NCBI GenBank assembly: GCA_030062745.1
Contig: CP099839.1
Coordinates: 5,751,115 to 5,815,114, forward strand
Origin: Capitulum mitella
Taxonomy: Eukaryota; Arthropoda; Thecostraca; Pollicipedomorpha; Pollicipedidae
DNA length: 64,000 bases
Direction of reading: 5' to 3'
In this document: positions 591 through 58,271 of the stretch, in pieces
Layout of the letters: each line of letters opens with the position of its first letter
How positions within the stretch are numbered: position 1 is the first letter of the stretch
Position numbers and translations under genes: made by a program
The notes under the pieces: model-generated
What the model was told of the DNA's origin: nothing
What the model saw: the letters and a program-made list of their open reading frames with translations, nothing else
The model's database searches: none

Positions 591-1804
591 TTAACCCTAT
601 TCCTGGCAGGGGGGCTGAACGCGCCCTCCTCGGGTTTTTTGCTTGCCAATTCCAGGCTTTTTAACGCAGTTTCACGAAACTTGGTGACTTTTTCTAGCTA
701 TTCTTTCTACGTGCCGTGACATAATTTCAAAATTCTGTTTTGCTCAGGGGCGGAGCCAGGTAACGTTTTTGGGAGGCACCTCATGCCATTTTTGGCCATG
801 TTGAGGGTAAAAGGAAAATGTCTGCCAAAAACAGAGTTTTTAAGATAGAACTTAAAACTTTATATGAATGTATAGCTAAATAGTCGGTCAATGTGCAGAT
901 TTAATTTTGGTTACCTGAGGTCATTTTACAAGGTCAGGTCACAGTCAAAACTCAAAATTTGTTTTTTCGCAATAATTTCGGCGTCGTTTTTTCAAATGCC
1001 AAACCCGGAATACATATGACGTAAAAGGGTGCCTTCTACTTGTGTACCAAGTTTCAGCTTGATATCAGGTCGTGCCACGGAGCTATGACCTAAAATGTCA
1101 GTGCGCGTACCCTATATCGCAATAGCCATAAAACGAAATTTTTGAAAAGAGTGAATTCAAGCGATTGAAAACGTTTAAAGATAATATCAAATGCACAGGG
1201 GATCATTCCAAGTGACCCCAAGGTCACTGGAGGTCATTTAAGGTCAAAGGTCACAAGTTGATCTGAGAAACGTGTGACCATGAAAGTTCCCCCTTTTTCA
1301 TGTCCCTGACACCGCCTATGCTAACATTATACACACATTGTAATGCGATTTGTACTTCTTTAGTATAACATGACTAGCAGAAGCCAAAAAAGTGTTTTTT
1401 CCTCTTTTGTTCATTCAGTTGTTAGAGAACCAATCCTCCTATTTTTGAAACCCTGTGAACGCCCATGAATTTTCTCAAAATTTCAGATTTGCGGACCCAT
1501 GGTAAAAGCCCTATTTATAATCTCTCGATTCATGCCAGTTTCATCGAAATTGGTCCATAAACGACGGAGTTATAAGAAGTCCAAAAGTACCCCCACATTT
1601 TGACATTTTTGTTCCCCTGTATCCACAAATTTAAAAATTTTGAAAATTCCGTTTGATAAAAATGTAGTTCTCGTCACGGCCAATCGATTGCCATTTGTTG
1701 CGATGAAATTGGACGAGTAGTTCTCGAGATCTCAGGGGGGGGGCCGAATCCGCCCCCCTGCCGGGAATCGACGATACCGTCTAGCCCTCCGGGAATAGGG
1801 TTAA
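591..1804 (+). mobile_element. TTAA-flanked piggyBac-like MITE, copy 1 (complete)
   Basis: The element runs from 595 to 1800 (1,206 bp) and is bounded by TTAA at 591-594 and 1801-1804. The left end reads CCCTATTCCTGGCAGGGGGG. The right end is its inverted counterpart, finishing CCGGGAATAGGG. A TTAA target duplication with CCCT-type termini is the hallmark of the piggyBac superfamily. No transposase frame is present, so the copy is non-autonomous. Both ends carry a GC palindrome just inside the terminus. The interior holds several AGGTCA-like motifs and a conserved block also found in copies 2-5. Copy 2 has exactly the same length in the opposite orientation. Confidence 0.85.
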
Positions 1805-3440
1805 GTCAATGACACAAAAATATCCGGGAAATCTGAGATAGCAGATTTGTTGCATTTATAAAGATCACCAATCTCTTAAAGTTTTATTATGAAACAATGT
1901 TTTCCGAAAAAGTTACAGGACACTAGAGTTTTTTCTGGACACAGGTCTTGAGTTGACTTGAGCACACTTGAGCTGACCTGCGTGAGACACCTGACTTGGC
2001 CTGAGATCAAAAATTTGACACAAGATGCAAACACGGTAAAGGAAATGATCCACAGAATTTCGTGGTGCTGCATTCGTTTGCTGTCTCGCAGTCTTTGAAA
2101 ACCTCAGTGGGTACATCCGACACAGTCGGGGCAGAGTTTAGTGACTAAACCGCCGCTGTAACAGAAATGTTTTGAAACATGCCTTGGGACTTTCTAAAGG
2201 CTAAAAAGCCAGCATCGATTCCAATTAACTATTTGCAGCGCTGGATGCCAAAAGATGACATTCAACTATTTTCCCCATTTTTGTTCTACTGGAGGCGCCA
2301 ATGACGTTTCTTGGTAACTTTGCTTATATAAAAAGTTAGCTCAGACCGAAAGCTATTGTATGAGTTCCGCTTCGCCGAGATCAGTGCAGTAGGTCGGAGG
2401 ATATTGGGCGAGGGGGAGTTGGGATTGGTCCCGCACAAATTTTAGACGAAATCCGGTGCATGCAAATAGGGCAATCTCTGGATCATTAACGCACGTGAGA
2501 TTCGGCGTTATGTTTGTTGTTCAGTTTACGTCATCGATATAACTGCGTTGAAACTTGCTTAAAGTCATTTGTCATGTATTTGGAGCCATGATGCACCCTC
2601 CACAGGATGCCTGGACGGGGAATGTAAGCATTCTTTTATCCCTTTGGCCTAGGCTGATATGAGATATAGAGCACTGCATCAAAAGAGCTACTTCGAAACA
2701 GAACACTGAGAGTGCATTCGCAGCGCACGTAGAATACGCTATTCTGCGTGACGTCACGCAGAATCTTTCCCGAACACCAAAAGGCACGAAATCTTCGGGG
2801 TATGACGTCACCGATGACATCGACGGCATAGATTCTACGTCGTCCAGGTCGCTGCGAATACATCCAAGCTACACGTCCAAGCACTTCATGCTGGAAATAA
2901 AAGTTACGCTCAGTGCAAATAGAACTCGCTTCTCAAATCCCAACGATGCCGTTTTAAGGATAGAACCATGTTATCATTCAAGTTTAACCAAAATATTCGT
3001 AAACAAATTTATCTGCCATTCTTCTCCAGGTTAAAGAAAACTCATCAATACTCATTTTGGCAGGAGAGGTCAAATTTGCACTGCCTTGTGTCAATGTTAG
3101 GCCACGCGACTTAGGGTTACGAACCCAAGAGATCGAAGTTTGCACAAAATAAAAAAACGCTACCTTTATCATATTCCTTCCATTATTTTAACAGATACAG
3201 ACCGTTAAAGACAACCATCTGCCGTGGTTTTTCACAAATGCCTAAGACTATAATTCAAAAGCCGTACGTCGGATCGAACTAAAAACTGCAGTGTCTCCAT
3301 CTATAGACCAATTTATAACAAAATCTGAGAAACATGGGTGTTAGGCCCCGGCCGATCTGAAGTGGAATGAACTGCCACAATTGTCTCTAGACAACTCAGT
3401 TTCGTTGTTATAGAACAATTGATGTATGTCAATCGAGAGA
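1805..3440. other. Noncoding stretch, nothing recognised
   Basis: Mixed-composition sequence with short unrelated frames. Around 2,740-2,840 there are several ACGTCA-type motifs (TGACGTCACGC and TGACGTCACCG), which resemble CRE-like sites, but no gene is visible beside them. Confidence 0.45.
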
Positions 3441-12121: not shown

Positions 12122-13335
12122 TTAACCCTATTCCCGGAGGGCTAGACGGTATGGTCGATTCCGGCAGGGGGGCGGATTCGGCCCCCCTGAGATCTCGAGA
12201 AATACTCGTCCGATTTCATCGCAACAAACGGCAATCGATTTGCCGTGACGTGCACTACATTTTTATAAAAAGAAATTTTCAAAATTTGGATATTTGTAGA
12301 TACAAGGAAGCAAAAATGTCAAAATGGGGGTTACTTTTGGACTTCTTATAACTCCGTTGTTTATCGACCGATTTCAATGAAACTGGCATGAATCGAGAGA
12401 TTATAGATAGCGTTTTTACCATGGGTCGACAAATCCGAAATTTTGAGAAAATTCATGGGCGTCCACAGGGTTTCAAGAATAGGAGGATTAGTTTTCTAAC
12501 AACTGAACGAACAAAAAAGTAAAAACACTTTTTTGGTTTCTGCTAGTCATGCTATGCTAAAGAAGTACAAATCGCATTACAATGTTTGTATAATGTTAGC
12601 ATAGGCGGTGCCAGGGACATGAAAAAGGGGAACACTCATGGTCACACGTTCTTCAGATCAACTTGTGACCTTTGACCTTAAATGACCTCCAGTGACCTTG
12701 AGGTCACTTGGAATGATCTCGTGTGCATTTGATATTATCTGTAATTGTTTTCAATCATTTGGATTCTCTCTATCCCAAAAATTCCATTTTATGGCTATTG
12801 CGATGTAGGGTACGCGCACTGACATTTTAGGTCATAGCTCCGTGACCCGACATGATATCAAGCTGAAACTTGGTACACAAGTAGAGGGCACCCTTTCACG
12901 TCATTTGTATTTCGGGTTTGGCATTTGAAGAAAAGGCGCCGAAATTATTGCAAAAAACAAATTTTAGCTTTTGACCTTGGCCTGACCTTGTAAAGTGACC
13001 TCAGATAAACAAAATTTTGTGTGCACATTGCCCAACTATTAAGCTATACATCCATGTAAGTTTTAAGTTCTATCTTAAAAACGCTGTTTTTGGCAGACAT
13101 TTTCCTTTTACCCTCAACATGGCCAAAAATGGCCTGAGGTGCCTCCCAAAAACGTTGCCTGGCTCCGCTCTTGAGCAAAGCATAATTGTGAAATTTTGTC
13201 ACAGCGCGTAGAATTAATATCTAGGAAAACCCACGAAGTTTCGTAAAGCTGCGTTAAAAAGCCTAGAATTGGCAAGCAAAAAACCCGAGGGGGTGCGGAT
13301 TCAGTCCCCCTTCGGGGGGCTGGGAATAGGGTTAA
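12122..13335 (-). mobile_element. TTAA-flanked piggyBac-like MITE, copy 2 (complete, inverted)
   Basis: The element runs from 12126 to 13331, again exactly 1,206 bp, between TTAA at 12122-12125 and 13332-13335. It is the reverse complement of copy 1 along its whole length, with scattered substitutions. Immediately outside the right end, 13336-13356 repeats the terminal motif CCGGGAATAGGGTTAA, so the terminus is locally duplicated. No transposase frame is present. Confidence 0.85.
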
Positions 13336-13640
13336 TGATGCCGGGAATAGGGTTAATGCTCCTTGAACTGCGCGACCAGGTGAATGAGAAGGGTTCTTAT
13401 CCGCCCAAGGTTTTGAAAGTACCAGAACTGAGATGCTTGGCAGCAGCCTTTTTTCGCTTTACGGCCGCGTCAAATCAGAAACCACCTCTACACTAGGACA
13501 CGTTTCATATTCTAATTTTCTATCCGATGCGTTCCCCTTTGACATTTATCCCCTTTGGCATTCACAAGAAATCTCTAGCATCCATACTAAAGCAGGGACG
13601 CAGCGTACCAAAAATTTTGGCGGCAGGAGGCTCTTCTCTC
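13336..13640. other. Short noncoding link with duplicated MITE terminus
   Basis: It begins with the second CCGGGAATAGGGTTAA (to 13356), then passes unremarkable sequence into the minisatellite. Confidence 0.5.
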
Positions 13641-14334
13641 AGCGGTGGGCCCCTCGACTTCATGTGGGCCCCTGAACAGCAGGGCTCCTCCGACGACTGG
13701 CAGGGGCCCCACGAGCCGGTAGGGTCCTACAGACCGGCAGGAGGCTACTACAGACCAATAGGGGCACCCTGCCTGCCTGTAGATGGCCCCCTGCAGACCA
13801 GCAGGGGCCCTTGCATGCCGACAGGAGGCCAACTGCAAGCAGGCTTTGGGACCTATCGATCGGCAGGGCCCCTACAGGCCGGCAGGGGCTTAAGAGGACA
13901 GCAGAGGAACCCTCCACAGACCAGCAGGTACCTTTCGAAAGCTGACAGTGGTCCCACGGGCCAGAAGGGGCCCTACAGACCAGCAGGTGTTTCTTACAAG
14001 CCAGTAGGAGGCTCAAAATGCCTGCAGGGAGCCCCTGCAGACCAGGAGCAGGAGGTCCCACAGGCCGGTAGGGGCTCCAGAGGAACCCTCCGTACGCCAG
14101 CTGGTGCCCTTCGAAGGCTGACAGGGGTTCCACAGGCCGGCAGGGGGCCCTACAGACCGGCAGGCGCTTCTTGCAAGCCAACAGGAGGCTCAAAAGGCCG
14201 GCAGGAGTCCCTGCACGCCGGCAGGAAGTCCTTACAGGCTAGCAGGGGCATTACTGGCCAATAGGGGGCCCAAAAGGCCAAAAGGAGCCCTACAGACCAG
14301 TAGGGGCTTCCTGTAGACAAGTAGGGGCCGCTAT
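13641..14334. repeat. 21-bp-period minisatellite, left segment
   Basis: Tandem degenerate units of about 21 bp with the core CCGGCAGGGGCCCCTACAGA. Because the period is a multiple of three, a 245-codon plus frame (13,527-14,264) stays open, giving heptads such as GRGPYRP/AGASCKP. A 177-codon minus frame (13,660-14,193) is open over the same stretch. Neither has a signal peptide or a domain. I read this as noncoding repeat, although a translated low-complexity protein cannot be excluded. Confidence 0.8.
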
Positions 14335-19840: not shown

Positions 19841-19847
19841 TGGCCAC

Positions 19848-19890
19848 TATAAAGGCCGCTCCACCGGCGTTGGTGGGCACTCCTCACAGT
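19848..19890 (+). promoter_or_regulatory. Core promoter of cuticle copy A
   Basis: TATAAAG at 19848-19854, 59 bp before the ATG, within CCACTATAAAGGCCGCTCC, which is shared by all copies. A TCACAGT initiator-like sequence lies at 19884-19890. The start site is inferred from TATA spacing, not observed. Confidence 0.75.
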
Positions 19891-19906: not shown

Positions 19907-21258
19907 ATGAGGGCTCTGGTGAGTGTGACAGTGGACGCTAGAGGGCGTAAGGGAGTGCGTGGTAAAGTCGGTACATTCGAAACAATTACTCACATTCCTG
20001 ATAAACAGAACAGAGAACCGCTCGAATGCATCTCATCGCAGAGCGACGTTTAACAACTCCCGTAATTTTTTATGCATGCAGTGATATGCGTACTGCTATA
20101 CCCAGCATATTGTTCACTGCAAATGACGCAAATATCCCACCTTCCATGTTTCAGATTCTGTGTACGCTGGTCGTGGCCGCACGGGCCCTGTACTCGGCCC
20201 CTGCCATCGGAGCTCGATTCAGCTACGGTTACACAGCCGCCGCCCCCCTTTACGCCGGCTACGGCTACACTAGGGCATACGGTGCTGCCCCTGTGGCTGC
20301 TACCTACGCTGCCACCCCTGTCGCTGCTACCTACGCTGCACCTGTTGCTGCGGGCTACGCTGCCCCTGTGGCTACTGCATATGCTGCTCCTGTGGCTGCT
20401 GCCTACGCCGCCCCTGTGGCCACCAGTGCCCAGCACCACTCCCAGGATGAGCTAGGCCAGTACAATTACGGCTATTCGGATATCAACTCTGCCAAGAACG
20501 AGGTCAAGACCGCTGACGGTGTGGTCCGTGGCTCCTACAGCTACCGCGACGCCTACGGCCTGCCGCAGAAGGTCGACTACGTGTCTGACGCTCTTGGCTT
20601 CCGTGTGGCGGCCACCAACCTGCCGGTGGGCCCCGCCCAGGCCGGTCTGGTCGGACCGGCCCCCGTCGGTGACACCCCTGAGGTTGCCGCTGCCAAGTCC
20701 GCCCACTTCGCTGCCCATGCTGAGGCTCTGGCTCGGTCTGGCCGTAAGAGGCGCAGTCTTGCCTACTCCTTTGCTGCTCCCCACGCGGCATACGCCCCCG
20801 CTGCGCTGGGCTATGCGTATAGCGGCCTGAACTCCGCTTATGGATACGCTCCCGTCGCTGCTACCTACGCTGCTGCCCCTGTTGCTACTGCCTATGCTGC
20901 TCCTGTGGCTGCTGCCTATGCCGCCCCTGTGGCCACCAGTGCCCAGCACCACTCCCAGGATGAGCTCGGCCAGTACAACTACGGCTACTCGGATATCAAC
21001 TCGGCCAAGAACGAGGTCAAGACTGCTGACGGTGTGGTCCGCGGTTCCTACAGCTACCGCGACGCCTACGGTCTGCCGCAGAAGGTCAACTACGTGTCTG
21101 ACGCTCTTGGCTTCCGTGTGGCAGCCACCAACCTGCCGGTGGGCCCTGCCCAGGCCGGTCTGGTCGGACCGGCCCCCGTCGGTGACACCCCTGAGGTTGC
21201 CGCTGCCAAGTCCGCCCATTTCGCTGCCCATGCCGAGGCCTTGGCCCGGGCTCACTAA
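19907..21258 (+). CDS. Two-domain cuticle protein precursor, copy A
   Basis: A secreted structural protein that should bind chitin in the exoskeleton. Exon 1 (19907-19918) encodes only MRAL. A GTGAGT donor and a TTTCAG acceptor bound a 236 bp intron. Exon 2 (20155-21258) encodes the rest, giving 371 residues. The signal peptide is MRALILCTLVVAARA, probably cleaved after ARA. A Tyr-rich stretch and AAPVA repeats follow. A chitin_bind_4-type domain sits at ~105-161 (core GQYNYGYSD, then GSYSYRDAYG, DALGFRVAATNLP), with an Ala-rich tail to ~198. Residues 201-204 are RKRR, a furin-type site. A second AAPVA linker and a second domain at ~276-332 follow. The two domains are almost identical; the visible core change is KVDY to KVNY. 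An ATG at 20026 lies inside the intron and would remove the signal peptide, so I did not use it. Upstream and gene body most resemble copy F. Confidence 0.85.
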
Positions 21259-22892
21259 ACCATTCCATATCCATCTGTGAGGAGAGCACAGTGAACGCGA
21301 TAGAATTCATGTTATTGAATTAGTATCGCTTTCGTATCTAGATTAACAACAAGGTTTCATACTTTATGTCTCTGTTGTTTTCTGTTCATGTGGTTGCAAG
21401 TAATGTCCGTTCAACTTGTCCTTTGTTGTATGTACCTCGTAACATCGTCATGAATGAATATATTTCATTTCGCAATATATGACATTTGCATTAATCTTTC
21501 ACACTTTGGATTCAACGCATGTCAAAAGTACGAAGTAATGGAAATAGATTTAACCTTCGCCGGACTACGTAGATAGTTTCCATCCCTCCCTACTCTCCGA
21601 TGAGGGTGACTAGAATCATGGTATGGCCTTCGTCAAGGACCTGGTGTCTGGCATGTTTCCCCCAAAAATTGATGTAAAGCATTACTGGGCATGTCAGGCC
21701 ATCGAGTTAGACGACATTCTTGAGGGCTGGCAACCGTTTTTCTTGATCTGAGCTATGTTTCTGCTTCTTTCTTAGGGGTTCGATAAGACAGGAGGTCAGT
21801 ATTTGATACATGACTGGATGGACGTATGCTTGACTACACATCGCGGTTTGAGATCTCAGTGATATTTTCAAAATGAAGTAAGGCCACTGACCTTATTCGA
21901 CCTCAAAATCACTTTGAGCAGTTCTCTGGATGGTCTGTAGCGCTGACATCAGTAATGTCAGATATTTCTACCAGCTTTTCAGCTATTTTTTCTCAAAACA
22001 AGATATCACATTACTACTTCCAAGGATTGGTGATCTTGATAGATGCAACAAATCTGCTATCTCAGAGTTTTTGGAATTTTCTGGGTCACTGACCTATTGC
22101 CATACCGATGTTTAAGACAAGTCGTCGTTTTTTTCGGAAATTGGCGGAATTTTTCACAACATTTTTAATGTGGAGTGAAGCAGACATCTACCTACCGTCA
22201 TGGGCAAACCATGAATGATTTCCAGCCATTGACCTGAGGTCAGGTTACGAATAACTGTTGTGAGCCAAAATGTACCACCATCACAGTCAGCGATGAATTA
22301 CTCAGAATGGGTAGAAAATGGGTAGAAAACGTAATACCAGGAACTTCCAATAAAGTTTTACAAAATTGGATATTTTGGAGATAAACAGGCTGTCACGAAT
22401 AAAGTTCCGCCAATTGTGCAGATTGGTAAGTAACGAATTTTTCTAAAATTTAAGCATGAGAAGCCATCGCAAGAACCACTAAGATTAATAAAATTGACAT
22501 GGATAGGCTTAAGTCGTAAAAATAAAGCAAGGCTCAAATTAGTTCGGTTTAATTTCTTGCTGCGTACGACTGTGGCGTCCACCGACAACCGGCGTGAAAA
22601 TTGCCATGTCTTTAACTGAACATTTTGGCGTATATATGGAACAAATCTGAGAAGTTAGACGTGTACCGGCATCTGTGGACCTTTACTTGATCGTTGGTGC
22701 CTTTACCTATGCGTTATTAGTCACATCCCTTGAGATTCAAGCCATTTCTTGGTCTCATGCAGTCGGCTATGAGAAAATATATATACATAAGACGTAAGTT
22801 GCTTACATATTATCTAAAACTAAAAATGAGACCAATTTCGAGCCCTAGTCGTCACAAGCTTTTCAGAGGTGTTCTTATTTTCATCGTGCGAT

Positions 22893-23137
22893 CGTACGCG
22901 TTTGGTTTAAACATGACAACCGGGGAGAAGGTCAACCTCTGGGAAGACGGTCACCCTCTCCCAAATGAGTGTCCATATCATTCCAAAAAATAATTTATGA
23001 GCCTAAAAAGTTTGTCGTACGCGTTTGGTTTAAACATGACAACCGGGGAGACGGTCAACTTCTGGGAGACGGTCACCCTCTCCCAAATGAGTGTCCATAT
23101 CATTCCAAAAGATAATTTATGAGCCTAAAAAGGGCTT
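22893..23137 (+). repeat. Tandem duplication, ~122-bp unit
   Basis: The stretch starting CGTACGCGTTTGGTTTAAAC at 22893 recurs at 23016 with few changes, through GAGTGTCCATATCATTCC and TTATGAGCCTAAAAAG. Other spacers have a single unit. Confidence 0.85.
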
Positions 23138-25274: not shown

Positions 25275-26117
25275 ATGAGGGCGCTGGTGAGTGTAACAGG
25301 GAACGCTAGAGGGCGTAAGCGAGTGCGTGATAAAGTCGGTACATTCGAAACAATTACTCACATTCCAAATAAACAGAACACAGAACCGCTCTGATGCATC
25401 TCCTCGTAGAGCGACGTTCATCATCTCCCTTATATTTTTCAAGTATGCATTGACATGCGTGCTGCTATACCCAGTCCATTGATCATTGCAAATGACGCGA
25501 ACACCCCATGTCCCATGTTTCAGATTCTGTGTACGCTGGTCGTGGCCGCACGGGCCCTGTACTCGGCCCCTGCCATCGGAGCTCGATTCAGCTACGGTTA
25601 CACAGCCGCCGCCCCCCTGTACGCCGGCTACGGCTACACCAGGGCATACGGTGCTGCCCCTGTGGCTGCTACCTACGCTGCTACCCCTGTCGCTGCTACC
25701 TACGCTGCTACCCCTGTTGCTGCGGGCTACGCTGCCCCTGTGGCTGCTGCACATGCTGCTCCTGTGGCTGCTGCCTACGCCGCCCCTGTGGCCACCAGTG
25801 CCCAGCACCACTCCCAGGATGAGCTCGGCCAGTACAACTACGGCTACTCGGATATCAACTCGGCCAAGAACGAGGTCAAGACTGCTGACGGTGTGGTCCG
25901 CGGCTCATACAGCTACCGCGACGCCTACGGCCTGCCGCAGAAGGTCGACTACGTGTCTGACGCTCTTGGCTTCCGTGTGGCGGCCACCAACCTGCCGGTG
26001 GGCCCTGCCCAGGCCGGTCTGGTCGGACCGGCCCCCGTCGGTGACACCCCTGAGGTTGCCGCTGCCAAGTCGGCCCATTTCGCTGCCCATGCCGAGGCCT
26101 TGGCCCGGGCTCACTAA
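25275..26117 (+). CDS. Single-domain cuticle protein, copy B
   Basis: A 201-residue secreted, chitin-binding cuticle protein. Exon 1 (25275-25286) encodes MRAL. A 237 bp GT-AG intron follows, then exon 2 (25524-26117). It has the same signal peptide as copy A, a Tyr-rich N-terminal stretch, AAPVA-type repeats (one unit reads HAAPV instead of YAAPV), a chitin_bind_4-type domain at ~106-162 and the Ala-rich C-terminus ending LARAH with no dibasic site. The stop falls where the RKRR linker begins in copy A. The ATG at 25455 lies in the intron and is not the start. The 3' flank has an extra CAACAACAAC run at ~26,208-26,222. Confidence 0.88.
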
Positions 26118-31641: not shown

Positions 31642-32458
31642 ATGAGGGCGCTGGTGAGTGTAACAGTGAACGCTAGAGGGCGTAAGCGAGTGCGTGATAA
31701 AGTCGGTACATTCGAAACAATTACTCACATTTCTAATGAACAGAACAGAGAACCGCTGTGATGCATCTCCTTACAGCGAAGTTCAACATCTCCCTTATAT
31801 TTTTCAAGTATGTATTGACACGCGTACTGCTATACCCAGTCCATTGATCATTGCAAATGACGTGAACACCCCATGTTCCATGTTTCAGATTCTGTGTACG
31901 CTGGTCGTGGCCGCACGGGCCCTGTACTCGGCCCCTGCCATCGGAGCTCGATTCAGCTACGGTTACACAGCCGCCGCCCCCCTCTACGCCGGTTACGGCT
32001 ACACCAGGGCATACGGTGCTGCCCCTGTGGCTGCTACCTACGCTGCTACCCCTGTCGCTGCTACCTACGCTGCTGCCCCTGTTGCTGCTGCCTATGCTGC
32101 TCCTGTGGCTGCTGCCTACGCCGCCCCTGTGGCCACCAGTGCCCAGCATCACTCCCAGGATGAGCTCGGCCAGTACAACTACGGCTACTCGGATATCAAC
32201 TCGGCCAAGAACGAGGTCAAGACTGCTGACGGTGTGGTCCGCGGCTCTTACAGCTACCGCGACGCCTACGGCCTGCCGCAGAAGGTCGACTACGTGTCTG
32301 ACGCTCTTGGCTTCCGTGTGGCGGCCACCAACCTGCCGGTGGGCCCTGCCCAGGCCGGTCTGGTCGGACCGGCCCCCGTCGGTGACACCCCTGAGGTTGC
32401 CGCTGCCAAGTCCGCCCACTTCGCTGCCCATGCCGAGGCCTTGGCCCGGGCTCACTGA
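31642..32458 (+). CDS. Single-domain cuticle protein, copy C
   Basis: A 193-residue secreted cuticle protein. Exon 1 (31642-31653, MRAL), a 235 bp intron, and exon 2 (31889-32458). It shares signal peptide, Tyr-rich segment, AAPVA repeats (37 residues between YGAAP and SAQHH against 44-45 in A, B and F), a chitin_bind_4-type domain at ~98-154 and the LARAH end. The stop is TGA, whereas A, B, D and F use TAA. The 3' flank contains AATAAA at 32543-32548, the only canonical polyadenylation signal seen at that position; sister copies read ATTAACAAC there. The ATG at 31694 is intronic. Confidence 0.88.
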
Positions 32459-35539: not shown

Positions 35540-36050
35540 AACCTCATGTTCATAAGATCCAAAAAAGAACACCGAAAACCGATCAGTCCTAAATTTAGGG
35601 CACGGGCCTTCGTCAGGGATAGTTTAAAAAAGACAAAGACACATATCGACGAATACGAAAATTAGCATGTCCGTGCTGCAAACGTGCATCCATCATAATA
35701 AAACACCAACATATAACGAATCCAAAGAAAAACGACCGCCACAACCAACCACATAGCTACGACTACTGGTAAGTACTGGCATGGGTATTACATGACTACT
35801 TGTTTGGAACTGGAGATAACAGGTGTCAGGATGACATATTGGTGTTCAGGATAGGCCTTGCATTGCGAATTTCAAACGATTCCACGATTTTGAGTTCTGC
35901 AACGTCCTTACAGGTCCCGATAATTTCAACGAGCAAAGATTTAGATGTAATGTTCACACGTATGTGGGATGTTGGAAAATGGTTACCCACGGGCGTGGTC
36001 CTAGTTTTGCTGCTGGCGTTCCTCAAATGTTCATTGTACCACTACGTAAT
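35540..36050 (-). mobile_element. Penelope-like element relic, left arm (minus strand)
   Basis: On the minus strand, a frame covering 36,045-35,826 reads YNEHLRN, then TPVGNHF, TCKDVAELK and RPILNTNMSS. This is the C-terminal half of a GIY-YIG endonuclease domain as carried by Penelope-like retroelements. Beyond the stop, 35,640-35,560 carries CCCTGACGAAGG followed by TAAATTTAGGACTGATC, resembling the terminal repeat of such elements. CTGACGA (35616-35610) fits the CUGANGA box of a hammerhead core, but the expected GAAA reads TAAA. The reverse transcriptase part is absent, so the element is dead. Confidence 0.65.
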
Positions 36051-36273
36051 TTTACATTTATTCCGCTTTATTGCTAACCAAATATTGCTATTGCTAACCA
36101 AATATTGCTAAACAAATATTGCTAACCAAACGCGGAGCGCACAAAACACAGGTTATTTTGTAAGCCTTATTACGTGAATTACTATGGCCTTAGATATTAT
36201 ATATGTGCTTTATATTATAGCTCACCACACGAGGAGCGCACAAATCACACACAAGTTTGTAAACCTTCTTCTC
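36051..36273. repeat. Centre of the inverted Penelope-like pair
   Basis: Tandem TATTGCTAACCAAA units at ~36,070-36,128, then AGCTCACCACACGAGGAGCGC at ~36,219. The latter is inverted against CCTCGTGTGATGAGCTAT at ~36,289-36,306. Confidence 0.7.
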
Positions 36274-36840
36274 TGTGGTTTGCGCCGTCCTCGTGTGATG
36301 AGCTATATTGTGGAAACTAAACGTAGAACTACGGAGCGATACGATGAACATTTGAGGAACGCTAACAACAAAACTAGGAACACGCCGCTGGGTGACCATT
36401 TGCGAACACCTCACACACATGTAAACATTACATCTAAATTACTTCCCATTGAAATTGTCCAGACCTGCAAGGACGTAGCAGAACTCAAATCGCGGAATCA
36501 GTTGGAATTCGTAGTGCAAAGCCTATCCTGAACATCAATATTTCATCCTGGCGCCTGCTGCCTCCAGTCCCATATCAGTATTATGTAGTTCCCATACCAG
36601 TAGTTACCAGTAGTCGTAATAATGGTTTTGTCGTTGGTTGTCGCGGTCGTTTAACTTTGAATTCGCGATATGGCGGTGCCTCATTATAAGGGATGCACGT
36701 TTCCCTCACGGACATCCTAATTTTCTCAGTCGTCGATGTCGGTGTTTGTCTTTTTGAAAAAACCGTCCCTGAGGAAGACCTGTGGCCGAAATATAGGACT
36801 AATTTGTTCTCGTGTTCTTTTTGGGATATTACGAGTTCAA
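36274..36840 (+). mobile_element. Penelope-like element relic, right arm (plus strand)
   Basis: The plus frame from ~36,274 reads CGLRRPRVMSYIVETKRR, then RYDEHLRNANNKT, GDHLRTPHTH and QTCKDVAELK. A frameshift near 36,512 follows, after which KPILNINISSW continues in another frame to ~36,548. YIVETKRR corresponds to the GIY-YIG YIGETxRR box. The terminal-repeat-like part has CTGAGGA at 36769-36775, AGACCTGTGGCC, then GAAA at 36788-36791, which matches the CUGANGA...GAAA layout of a hammerhead ribozyme with a short stem II. It is the inverted partner of the left arm; both look decayed. Confidence 0.68.
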
Positions 36841-40268: not shown

Positions 40269-41083
40269 ATGAGGGCGCTGGTGAGTGTAACAGTGAACGC
40301 TAGAGGGCGTAAGCGAATGCGTGATAAAGTCTGGCACATTCGAAACAACTATTCCCATTCCTAATTTACTAAATACAGAGCCGCTCTGATGCATCTGCTT
40401 AAGCGACATTTAACATCTCCCACATATATTTTCATGTATGCAGTGACACGCGTACTGCTATACCCCGTCCATTGCTCACTGCAAATGACGCAAGCAACCC
40501 ATGTTCCACGTTCCAGATTCTGTGTACGCTGGTCGTGGCCGCACGGGCCCTGTACTCGGCCCCTGCCATCGGAGCTCGATTCAGCTACGGTTACACAGCC
40601 GCCGCCCCCCTGTACGCCGGCTACGGCTACACCAGGGCATACGGTGCTGCCCCTGTGGCTGCTACCTACGCTGCTACCCCTGTCGCTGCTACCTACGCTG
40701 CCCCTGTTGCTGCTGGCTACGCTGCCCCTGTGGCTGCTGCCTATGCCGCCCCCGTGGCCACCAGTGCCCAGCACCACTCCCAGGATGAGCTCGGCCAGTA
40801 CAACTACGGCTACTCGGATATCAACTCGGCCAAGAACGAGGTCAAGACCGCTGACGGTGTGGTCCGCGGTTCCTACAGCTACCGCGACGCCTACGGTCTG
40901 CCGCAGAAGGTCGACTACGTGTCTGACGCTCTTGGCTTCCGTGTGGCGGCCACCAACCTGCCGGTGGGCCCCGCCCAGGCCGGTCTGGTCGGACCGGCCC
41001 CCGTCGGTGACACCCCTGAGGTTGCCGCTGCCAAGTCCGCCCACTTCGCTGCCCATGCCGAGGCCTTGACCCGGGCTCACTAA
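40269..41083 (+). CDS. Single-domain cuticle protein, copy D
   Basis: A 192-residue secreted cuticle protein, the shortest intact copy. Exon 1 (40269-40280, MRAL), a 236 bp intron with the acceptor variant TTCCAG, and exon 2 (40517-41083). AAPVA repeat region of 36 residues, chitin_bind_4-type domain at ~97-153, C-terminus ALTRAH (Ala to Thr against the other copies). The start is fixed by the shared TATA/ATG spacing and the signal peptide; ATG 40472 is intronic. The body is nearly identical to the other copies despite the divergent distal upstream region. Confidence 0.88.
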
Positions 41084-47012: not shown

Positions 47013-48263
47013 ATGAGGGCGCTGGTGAGTGTAACAGTGAACGCTAGAGGGTGTGAGCGAGCGCGTGATAAAGTCCGTACATTCGAAACAATTGCTCACA
47101 TTCCTAATAGACAAAACAGCGAACCGCGCTGATGCATCCCTCGTAGAGCGACGTTTAACATCTTCCGTATATTTGTCATGTATGCAGTGACACGCGTACT
47201 GCTATACCCAGTCCATTGATCATTGCAAATGACGCAAACACCCCATGTTCCATGTTTTAGATTCTGTGTACGCTGGTCGTGGCCGCACGGGCCCTGTACT
47301 CGGCCCCTGCCATCGGAGCTCGATTCAGCTACGGTTACACAGCCGCCGCCCCCCTATACGTCGGCTACGGCTACACCAGGGCATACGGTGCTGCCCTGTG
47401 GCCCTGCTACCTCGGCCCCTGTGGCCACCAGTGCCCAGCACCACTCCCAGGATGAGCTAGGCCAGTACAACTACGGCTATTCGGATATCAACTCCGCCAA
47501 GAACGAGGTCAAGACTGCTGACGATGTGGTCCGCGGCTCCTACAGCTACCGCGACGCCTACGGTCTGCCGCAGAAGGTCGACTACGTGTCTGACGCTCTT
47601 GGTTTCCGTGTGGCGGCCACCAACCTGCCGGTGGGCCCCGCCCAGGCCGGTCTGGTCGGCCCGGCCCCCGTCGGTGACACCCCTGAGGTTGCCGCTGCCA
47701 AGTCGGCCCACTTCGCTGCCCATGCTGAGGCTCTGGCTCGGTCTGGCCGTAAGAGGCGCAGTCTTGCCTACTCCTTTGCTGCTCCCCACGCGGCATACGC
47801 CCCCGCTGCGCTGGGCTATTCGTATAGCGGCCTGAACTCCGCTTATGGATACGCTCCCGTCGCTGCTACCTACGCTGCTGCCCCTGTTGCTACTGCCTAT
47901 GCTGCTCCCATGGCTGCTCCCTATGCCGCCCCTGTGGCCACCAGTGCCCAGCACCACTCCCAGGATGAGCTCGGCCAGTACAACTACGGCTACTCGGATA
48001 TCAACTCGGCCAAGAACGAGGTCAAGACCGCTGACGGTGTGGTCCGCGGCTCCTACAGCTACCGCGACGCCTACGGCCTGCCGCAGAAGGTCGACTACGT
48101 GTCTGACGCTCTTGGCTTCCGTGTGGCGGCCACCAACCTGCCGGTGGGCCCTGCCCAGGCCGGTCTGGTCGGACCGGCCCCCGTCGGTGACACCCCTGAG
48201 GTTGCCGCTGCCAAGTCGGCCCACTTCGCTGCCCATGCCGAGGCCTTGGCCCGGGCTCACTAA
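47013..48263 (+). pseudogene. Two-domain cuticle gene copy E, broken by frameshift
   Basis: Exon 1 (47013-47024) encodes MRAL; a 236 bp intron follows (acceptor TTTTAG). Exon 2 opens at 47261 in the normal frame with the usual signal peptide and YGYTRAYGAA stretch. Between 47,387 and 47,426 the AAPVA repeat region is 101 bp shorter than in copy A, which is not a multiple of three. The frame then reads through the next block out of register and stops at TGA 47453-47455. Downstream, the two domains, the RSGRKRRSLA linker and the LARAH end remain open in another frame to 48263. The first domain also has TADDVV for TADGVV. Either a recent pseudogene or an assembly error in low-complexity sequence. 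A start at 47223 would give no signal peptide. Confidence 0.75.
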
Positions 48264-54213: not shown

Positions 54214-54503
54214 TTAACCCTATTCCCGGCAGGGGGGGCGGAATCCGCCCCCCCCTCGGGTTTTTTGCTTGCCAATTCTAGGCTTTTTAACGCAGCTTCA
54301 CGAAACTTGATCGCTTTTCCTAGCTATTCTTTTTACGTGCTGTGACAAAATTTCGCAATTTTACTTTGCTCAGGGGCGGAGCCAGGCAACGTTTTTGGGA
54401 GGCACCTCAGGCCATTTTTGGCCATGTTAAGTGTAAAAAGAAAATGTCTGCCAAAAACAGAGTTTTTAAGATAGAACTTAAAACTTTATATGGATGTATA
54501 GCT
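54214..54503 (+). mobile_element. TTAA MITE copy 4, runs into the assembly gap
   Basis: TTAA at 54214-54217, then CCCTATTCCCGGCAGGGGGG and a clean GC palindrome, followed by the copy 1 interior up to the N run. It sits at the native TTAA of the gene-proximal block: copy E reads TTCGTTAAAACATAAG at this place (TTAA 46808-46811), ~145 bp upstream of the TATA box. Confidence 0.85.
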
Positions 54504-55003
54504 NNNNNNNNNNNNNNNNNNNNNNNNNNNNNNNNNNNNNNNNNNNNNNNNNNNNNNNNNNNNNNNNNNNNNNNNNNNNNNNNNNNNNNNNNNNNNNNNN
54601 NNNNNNNNNNNNNNNNNNNNNNNNNNNNNNNNNNNNNNNNNNNNNNNNNNNNNNNNNNNNNNNNNNNNNNNNNNNNNNNNNNNNNNNNNNNNNNNNNNNN
54701 NNNNNNNNNNNNNNNNNNNNNNNNNNNNNNNNNNNNNNNNNNNNNNNNNNNNNNNNNNNNNNNNNNNNNNNNNNNNNNNNNNNNNNNNNNNNNNNNNNNN
54801 NNNNNNNNNNNNNNNNNNNNNNNNNNNNNNNNNNNNNNNNNNNNNNNNNNNNNNNNNNNNNNNNNNNNNNNNNNNNNNNNNNNNNNNNNNNNNNNNNNNN
54901 NNNNNNNNNNNNNNNNNNNNNNNNNNNNNNNNNNNNNNNNNNNNNNNNNNNNNNNNNNNNNNNNNNNNNNNNNNNNNNNNNNNNNNNNNNNNNNNNNNNN
55001 NNN
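54504..55003. other. Assembly gap, 500 N
   Basis: Exactly 500 N, the usual placeholder for a gap of unknown size. Left flank is gene-upstream block plus MITE; right flank is a block that lies ~2 kb after the stop in copies D and F. A cuticle gene probably lies inside. Confidence 0.95.
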
Positions 55004-57432: not shown

Positions 57433-58271
57433 ATGAGGGCTCTGGTGAGTGTCACATTGGATGCTAGAGGGCGTAAGGGAGTGCGTGGAAAAGTCGGTAA
57501 ATTCGAAACAATTACTCACATTCCTGATAAACAGAACAGAGAACCGCTCGAATGCATCTCATCGCAGAGAGACGTTTCACAACTACCGTAATTTTTTATG
57601 TATGCAGTGATATGCGTACTGCTATACCCAGCATATTGTTCACTGCAAATGACGCGAACACCCCATGTTCCATGTTTCAGATTCTGTGTACGCTGGTCGT
57701 GGCCGCACGGGCCCTGTACTCGGCCCCTGCCATCGGAGCTCGATTCAGCTACGGTTACACAGCCGCCGCCCCCCTGTACGCCGGCTACGGCTACACTAGG
57801 GCATACGGTGCTGCCCCTGTGGCTGCCACCTACGCTGCTACCCCTGTCGCTGCTACCTACGCTGCATCTGTTGCTGCGGGCTACGCTGCCCCTGTGGCTG
57901 CTGCATATGCTGCTCCTGTGGCTGCTGCCTACGCCGCCCCTGTGGCCACCAGTGCCCAGCACCACTCCCAGGATGAGCTAGGCCAATACAACTACGGCTA
58001 CTCGGATATCAACTCGGCCAAGAACGAGGTCAAGACTGCTGACGGCGTGGTCCGCGGCTCCTACAGCTACCGCGACGCCTACGGTCTGCCGCAGAAGGTC
58101 GACTACGTGTCTGACGCTCTTGGCTTCCGTGTGGCGGCCACCAACCTGCCGGTGGGCCCCGCCCAGGCCGGTCTGGTCGGACCGGCCCCCGTCGGTGACA
58201 CCCCTGAGGTTGCCGCTGCCAAGTCGGCCCACTTCGCTGCCCATGCCGAGGCCTTGGCAAGGGCTCACTAA
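57433..58271 (+). CDS. Single-domain cuticle protein, copy F
   Basis: A 200-residue secreted cuticle protein. Exon 1 (57433-57444) encodes MRAL with the GCT codon shared only with copy A. A 236 bp intron follows, then exon 2 (57681-58271). Signal peptide and Tyr-rich segment as in the others. The AAPVA repeats include one YAASV unit. Chitin_bind_4-type domain at ~105-161, C-terminus LARAH, no RKRR site. Its promoter and intron match copy A best, yet it lacks A's second domain, so A gained (or F lost) one domain unit. The ATG at 57552 is intronic. Confidence 0.88.

Follow-up and report, generated by a model that had tools for sequence, protein, structure and literature searches.

The gene at positions 19907–21258 (+) of the 64,000-nucleotide stretch of DNA analysed here (the window) encodes two cuticle-type chitin-binding modules joined by a linker with the basic motif RKRR, which raises the question of whether its product serves as one double protein or is divided into two during secretion. 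Proteins with the RR (Rebers-Riddiford) domain form a very large arthropod cuticle family and are usually regarded as plain secreted polypeptides. The gene, termed copy A, has two exons and a product of 371 aa (37.7 kDa). Exon 1 lies at 19907–19918 (+; ATGAGGGCTCTG, coding for MRAL) and is followed by a GT-AG intron of 236 nt at 19919–20154 (+; GTGAGT...TTTCAG), the intron length being 235–238 nt across 11 gene copies of the cluster to which copy A belongs. Exon 2, at 20155–21258 (+), runs from the rest of the signal peptide to the stop codon. The N-terminus of the precursor, MRALILCTLVVAARA, was found by inspection to be signal-peptide-like. Exon 2 then encodes, in order, the signal-peptide remainder, an arm rich in Ala, Pro and Tyr, the first RR domain, a predicted helix and the RKRR linker, followed by the second RR domain, another predicted helix and the stop. 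A TATA box-like element (CTATAAA) is situated at 19847–19853 (+), 60 nt before the ATG, and the five further copies within the window are preceded by counterparts, the version of copy E being CACTATAAATGCC.

Pfam analysis of copy A gave a match to Chitin_bind_4 (PF00379) in two stretches (E 9.9e-27, 93.5 bits against a cut-off of 25), with RR domain 1 at 20425–20634 (+; precursor residues 95–164) and RR domain 2 at 20938–21147 (+; precursor residues 266–335). The modules form two 300-nt units of 96% identity at a spacing of 513 bp. A DUF3432 match (E 1.6e-8, above cut-off) was also returned, though it sits in the Ala/Pro/Tyr-rich arm and was taken as compositional. An AlphaFold model of exon 2, built from an input of 8 sequences and of low confidence (mean pLDDT 46.5), places two beta-rich RR domains at exon-2 residues 92–154 and 263–325 and helices at residues 175–194 and 346–366. 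In this low-confidence model RKRR starts at exon-2 residue 197, three residues past the end of the first helix, and the linker blocks score a pLDDT of 24–37, which hints that the linker may be disordered. The top Foldseek match to the model was the chitin-bound R&R domain 9l0p (probability 1.00, TMt 0.65, E 0.08), which supports the RR domain assignment as far as such a model allows. No match among solved structures was obtained with Foldseek at E 0.001, and a sequence search of the PDB returned 9l0p at only E 0.24 together with two chance-like matches.

The linker between the modules lies at 20734–20931 (+), comprises 66 aa running from RSGRKRRSLAYSF to AAPV and is missing in the single-domain copies. 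Copies B, C, D and F stop at RAH, the point at which copy A continues with RSGRKRRSLAYSF; the linker onset thus coincides exactly with the end of the single-domain copies, as the preliminary description of this DNA had it. Within the linker, the codons CGT AAG AGG CGC at 20743–20754 (+) encode RKRR (precursor residues 201–204), a predicted furin-type site with Ser at P1'. The further claim that two chitin-binding domains and this motif share one reading frame in copy A was borne out by the two Pfam stretches and the position of these codons. A cut at this site is predicted to yield products of 204 aa (including the signal peptide) and 167 aa. When the copy A protein alone was shuffled, the chance of one R-X-[KR]-R was 0.0255; the single motif is therefore just mildly surprising, and it is conservation across the family that carries the case.

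To place copy A among its relatives, the genome (16 contigs, 477 Mb) was searched with a protein query that included the linker, giving 65 matches. Twelve copies lie between 5.77 and 5.86 Mb on contig C1, A–F inside the window, which spans C1:5751115-5815114, and G–L beyond it. Four of these (A, E, I and L) have two domains, of which two, A and L, are intact, and R-X-[KR]-R is present in the linker of all four. The site is absent from all seven single-domain copies, namely B (25275–26117, +, 201 aa), C (31642–32458, +, 193 aa), D (40269–41083, +, 192 aa), F (57433–58271, +, 200 aa), G, H and K. Copy E (47013–48263, +) had been described as sharing the design of copy A, and this holds for its layout, both domains and the linker (from 47739), but not for its frame, which is broken by a frameshift in exon 2 before domain 1, so that in this assembly the spliced frame is just 68 aa long. 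Its stretch from the signal-peptide part to RR domain 1 measures 160 nt, compared with 261 nt in copy A, and the frameshift is either a pseudogene lesion or an assembly error. Copy I (locus L011, C1:5829500-5835000, gene from 1861) is likewise two-domain, with a frameshift inside domain 2 and a frame that stops after 295 aa. Copy J (locus L012, C1:5838000-5842000, 2084–2257, minus strand) is an inverted 3' fragment fused to other sequence.

Outside the cluster, about 29 distant paralogue loci were counted by hand from the search output at E < 1e-8, and 18 of them were fetched. These paralogues, like the control loci described below, were read as single open frames covering the RR exon alone. 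Seventeen of the 18 have R-X-[KR]-R at a distance of 2–67 aa past the (first) RR domain, in otherwise divergent sequence, a share that the query could favour as it contained the linker; the 18 fall into approximately 12 distinct groups, and the site is present in 11 of these. The exception is L028, in which no R-X-[KR]-R was found behind the RR domain. With a slash marking the predicted cut, the site contexts are APLRRKR/SLLRG (L018), VLTRRKR/GLAYA (L019), SGSRRRR/SLAQP (L015/L016), HGARRKR/QALLL (L017), PDARRKR/SLAMP (L020), PDSRKKR/NAPLP (L021), PDSRKKR/SAPLP (L022), AASRTRR/SAPLP (L023), SSERRRR/SAVLL (L024–L027), RGERKRR/AIVFG (L069/L072), RASREKR/SLLAP and LAFRRKR/SLIAP (L070) and AKSRSKR/SLVYS (L071). 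Furin-type convertases follow the rule R-X-[K/R]-R, in which P4, P2 and P1 are needed and P3 is free. Among the paralogues the residue at P3 is K, R, E, S or T, whereas P4, P2 and P1 are constant, which points to the furin-type rule and not to a mere basic patch; P1' is mostly Ser. The codons of the site vary among the six genes compared. The shuffle chance per site-bearing protein ranged from 0.0005 to 0.10, the upper value (up to 10%) being that of L018.

As controls, 40 other RR loci (L029–L068) were hand-picked across clusters, and hence not at random, from 150 scored PF00379 matches of 627 candidates. R-X-[KR]-R was absent from the region C-terminal of the RR domain in all 40. L060 and L065 contain it on the N-terminal side of the domain, in apparently out-of-frame stretches, and these instances were not counted. 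On an RR-domain tree of 60 rows the distribution of the site needs two changes (one gain and one loss), or one without L028, compared with a mean of 16.4 changes in shuffles, none of 500 of which was as low, a difference that near-copies inflate. The 20 rows of the subfamily form one side of a branch with support of 94/81, which is below star level, and the weaker relatives L048, L057, L058, L060 and L062, which are among the controls, fall outside the clade and carry no site behind the RR domain. From these sequences the site is confined to one RR clade among the loci examined. The earlier reading of RKRR as furin-type is strengthened, at the level of sequence, by its presence in 17 of 18 paralogues, its absence from the 40 controls and the furin spacing of the pattern.

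The same data bear on the suggestion that the protein remains uncut and bridges chitin fibrils as a two-headed linker, RKRR being an unused site or simply a patch of basic residues. A site-free protein with several RR domains does exist in this genome: L067 (C2:4928000-4932500, 1176–3419, minus strand) has a 747-aa frame with three RR stretches and repeated DTPEVAAAKA-type motifs, contains no R-X-[KR]-R and is a candidate multi-headed RR protein on its sequence. Several RR domains per chain therefore do not alone bring the site. The conserved pattern, however, keeps the spacing of furin sites, with variation at the third position, and is not a generic basic cluster, it also stands behind the RR domain in single-RR proteins, where a second head is absent, and among the loci examined it is limited to one RR clade. 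The two-headed, uncleaved form is accordingly less likely than a polyprotein and, taken by itself, is considered quite improbable. We consider it rather likely, from the sequence features above, that copy A encodes a secreted precursor which would be cut after RKRR by a furin-type convertase into two RR proteins.

A cut could also serve export or activation, an inhibitory or solubilising half being removed and discarded. This overlaps with the favoured explanation of two released RR proteins in the cut itself, and the members with a single RR domain are relevant to it. The tails behind the site of the single-RR proteins L020, L021, L023, L024, L026 and L069–L072 showed no second PF00379 stretch, which would fit removal of such a half, as would the retention in vesicles of Caenorhabditis elegans collagens with a mutated furin site, according to the accessible part of that report (PMC13225626). 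On the other hand, copies A and L retain full modules in both halves, and domain copies of both positions, when pooled, give a pN/pS of 0.044; a cut for export or activation, with one half discarded, is judged unlikely, if with some residual weight. Three single-RR proteins, L025, L026 and L070, have two sites each. In L070 (533–1327) a 38-residue unit follows each of the two sites, 33 of the 38 residues being alike, and in L026 (1893–3479) and L025 (1360–2730) the start of a repeated tail stands behind each of the two sites. L017 (1591–2724) carries a degenerate second RR module behind its site (domain E 6e-07, with one Pfam stretch only), which appears to be decaying while keeping the terminal TPEVAAA motif.

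The pooled value derives from 11 domain copies (A1, A2, B, C, D, F, G, H, K, L1 and L2, with E1, E2, I1 and I2 excluded), for which pS was 0.102 and pN 0.0044. On this comparison of sequences the domain copies are under purifying selection. Comparison of the opening 114 nt of the linker showed four synonymous and no nonsynonymous changes between A and L, no synonymous and one nonsynonymous change between A and E, and two synonymous and one nonsynonymous change between A and I. A remaining explanation is that copy A is a functionless accident of recent tandem duplication or an artefact of assembly, for which the frameshifts in copies E and I and the presence of a 500-N assembly gap inside the window could be cited. 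Set against these are the selection on the domains and the recurrence of the layout, with divergent sequence and an open frame, in copy L, L018, L019 and L015/L016, so that such an origin is regarded as very improbable indeed.

The number of modules per gene appears to have changed repeatedly. Over 321 shared coding nt the first domains (A1, E1, I1 and L1) differ from each other by 7–11 nt and from the second domains (A2, E2 and L2, with I2 excluded for its frameshift) by 10–16 nt. Over the same 321 nt the single-domain copies are 3–12 nt from the second domains and 9–16 nt from the first, which would place them modestly closer to the second. Only three positions, all within the last 11 nt, cleanly split the first domains from all others, and the modules of both positions are therefore largely homogenised. 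Two-domain and single-domain copies intermingle in trees of both flanks, copy A grouping with F and K and copies E, L and I with C, B and G on the 5' side, and A with D and E with I on the 3' side. It is most likely from these patterns that the single-domain copies arose via repeated loss (or conversion) of the 513-bp module and linker. Gain of a second module is a less simple account, because two-domain relatives occur outside the cluster: L018 and L019 elsewhere on C1 and L015 and L016 on C10 are two-domain genes with divergent linkers and a like site. These genes also make the two-domain design older than the duplication that separated A and E; an origin around that duplication is ruled out by them. 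In the RR-domain tree itself the forks are open and a common origin of the two-domain genes is not settled.

A number of other features were recorded in the window. The assembly gap is a run of 500 N at 54504–55003 and separates copy E from copy F. Long inverted repeat arms, 86–92% complementary, occur at 625–1615 and 12306–13293, with a further stretch at 54251–54486, and are perhaps mobile-element copies. A fold-back at 35889–36489 has 172-nt arms that are 81% complementary at a spacing of 257 nt, and two tandem copies of a 122-bp unit with 96% matches lie at 22892–23132. A repetitive Gly/Pro-rich frame of 255 aa at 13497–14264, with the opposite strand also open (13660–14238), is probably a repeat and not a gene. 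No matches were returned for the window by the Rfam scan or by a tRNA scan with the bacterial code, and the prokaryote library NCBIfam gave no families for two proteins.

It is proposed that the copy A precursor would be translated into the endoplasmic reticulum, as a secreted cuticle protein, and would be cut after RKRR by a furin-type proprotein convertase late in the secretory pathway. Candidate convertases, of furin or PC2 type, are represented in the genome by five P_proprotein matches, of which two are full-length. The cut would release two separate RR chitin-binding proteins of one layout, each composed of an Ala/Pro/Tyr-rich arm, an RR domain and a DTPEVAAAKSAHFAAHAEAL helix. Copy A had been called functionally distinct from its single-domain neighbours, but it is not clearly so, since each predicted product closely resembles the near-identical modules that these neighbours encode. 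Unequal recombination or conversion removing the 513-bp module and the linker would have given rise to the neighbours, and because of this loss the cluster would make nearly the same mature module cut and uncut. By analogy, the benefit of cleavage would probably be that chitin-binding chains are kept exportable before assembly, together with equal dosage of the two products. It should also be noted that the GRKRR of the window cluster could, speculatively, leave an amidatable C-terminal Gly.

For the family as a whole, a clade of RR genes would have inherited the site behind the RR domain, where it would part two RR modules in some members and the RR domain from a tail in others. The former, polyprotein layout is seen in copies A and L, in L018 and L019 and in L015/L016. 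Related cuticle proteins would probably also be cut during secretion, since many genes carry a like signal. On balance, the sequences lean towards the entire RR clade of this lineage being made as proproteins that furin processes, among them several true polyproteins, with a module number that toggles by 513 bp. Each true polyprotein would give rise either to a pair of RR proteins or to repeated tail peptides, and exact gain or loss of 513 bp would toggle the number of modules per gene with the mature module nearly unchanged. Cleavage is not essential in every member, since the site is absent from L028 and from all seven cluster copies with a single domain.

If the proposal is true, proteolytic processing would be a control point in the assembly of the exoskeleton and shell matrix, and some two-RR protein models would be precursors rather than mature proteins. 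The predicted termini would be searchable in existing barnacle proteomes. Neighbouring genes that make nearly the same module with and without cleavage also offer a natural experiment.

Among known systems, nematode polyprotein allergens and neuropeptide precursors have repeated modules parted by basic convertase sites, though unlike copy A these are not structural chitin-binding proteins. Compared with CPR proteins (RR, PF00379) in general, copy A is alike in that both modules match PF00379 and the whole protein scores above cut-off, and unlike in that its clade has a conserved furin-type site C-terminal of the RR domain, as seen in none of the 40 controls. No furin or convertase site in RR proteins was found in the literature searched, which left most subscription journals outside; a tick cement study, in the portion of it available, ran a furin-site predictor on proteins that included RR proteins and gives no outcome of it there (PMC9734129). 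Two-RR proteins themselves are already known from barnacles. The shell matrix of Amphibalanus amphitrite is reported, in the accessible part of the study, to include three RR proteins with two RR domains and 50 with one, the former being like copy A in having two RR domains per protein, and its main text gave no match for furin, cleavage, proteolytic or propeptide (PMC11293433). Convertase-controlled assembly of the arthropod exoskeleton would form a parallel to BLI-4 and the collagens of nematodes. According to the available parts of a review and a primary report, the cuticle collagens of C. elegans are cut by BLI-4/PCSK, and furin-site mutants are not secreted (PMC11304992; PMC13225626). They belong to an unrelated family, and the cut described in those parts removes an N-terminal portion in place of dividing repeated modules at their boundary, but like the proteins proposed here they help to build the cuticle and carry a consensus furin site.
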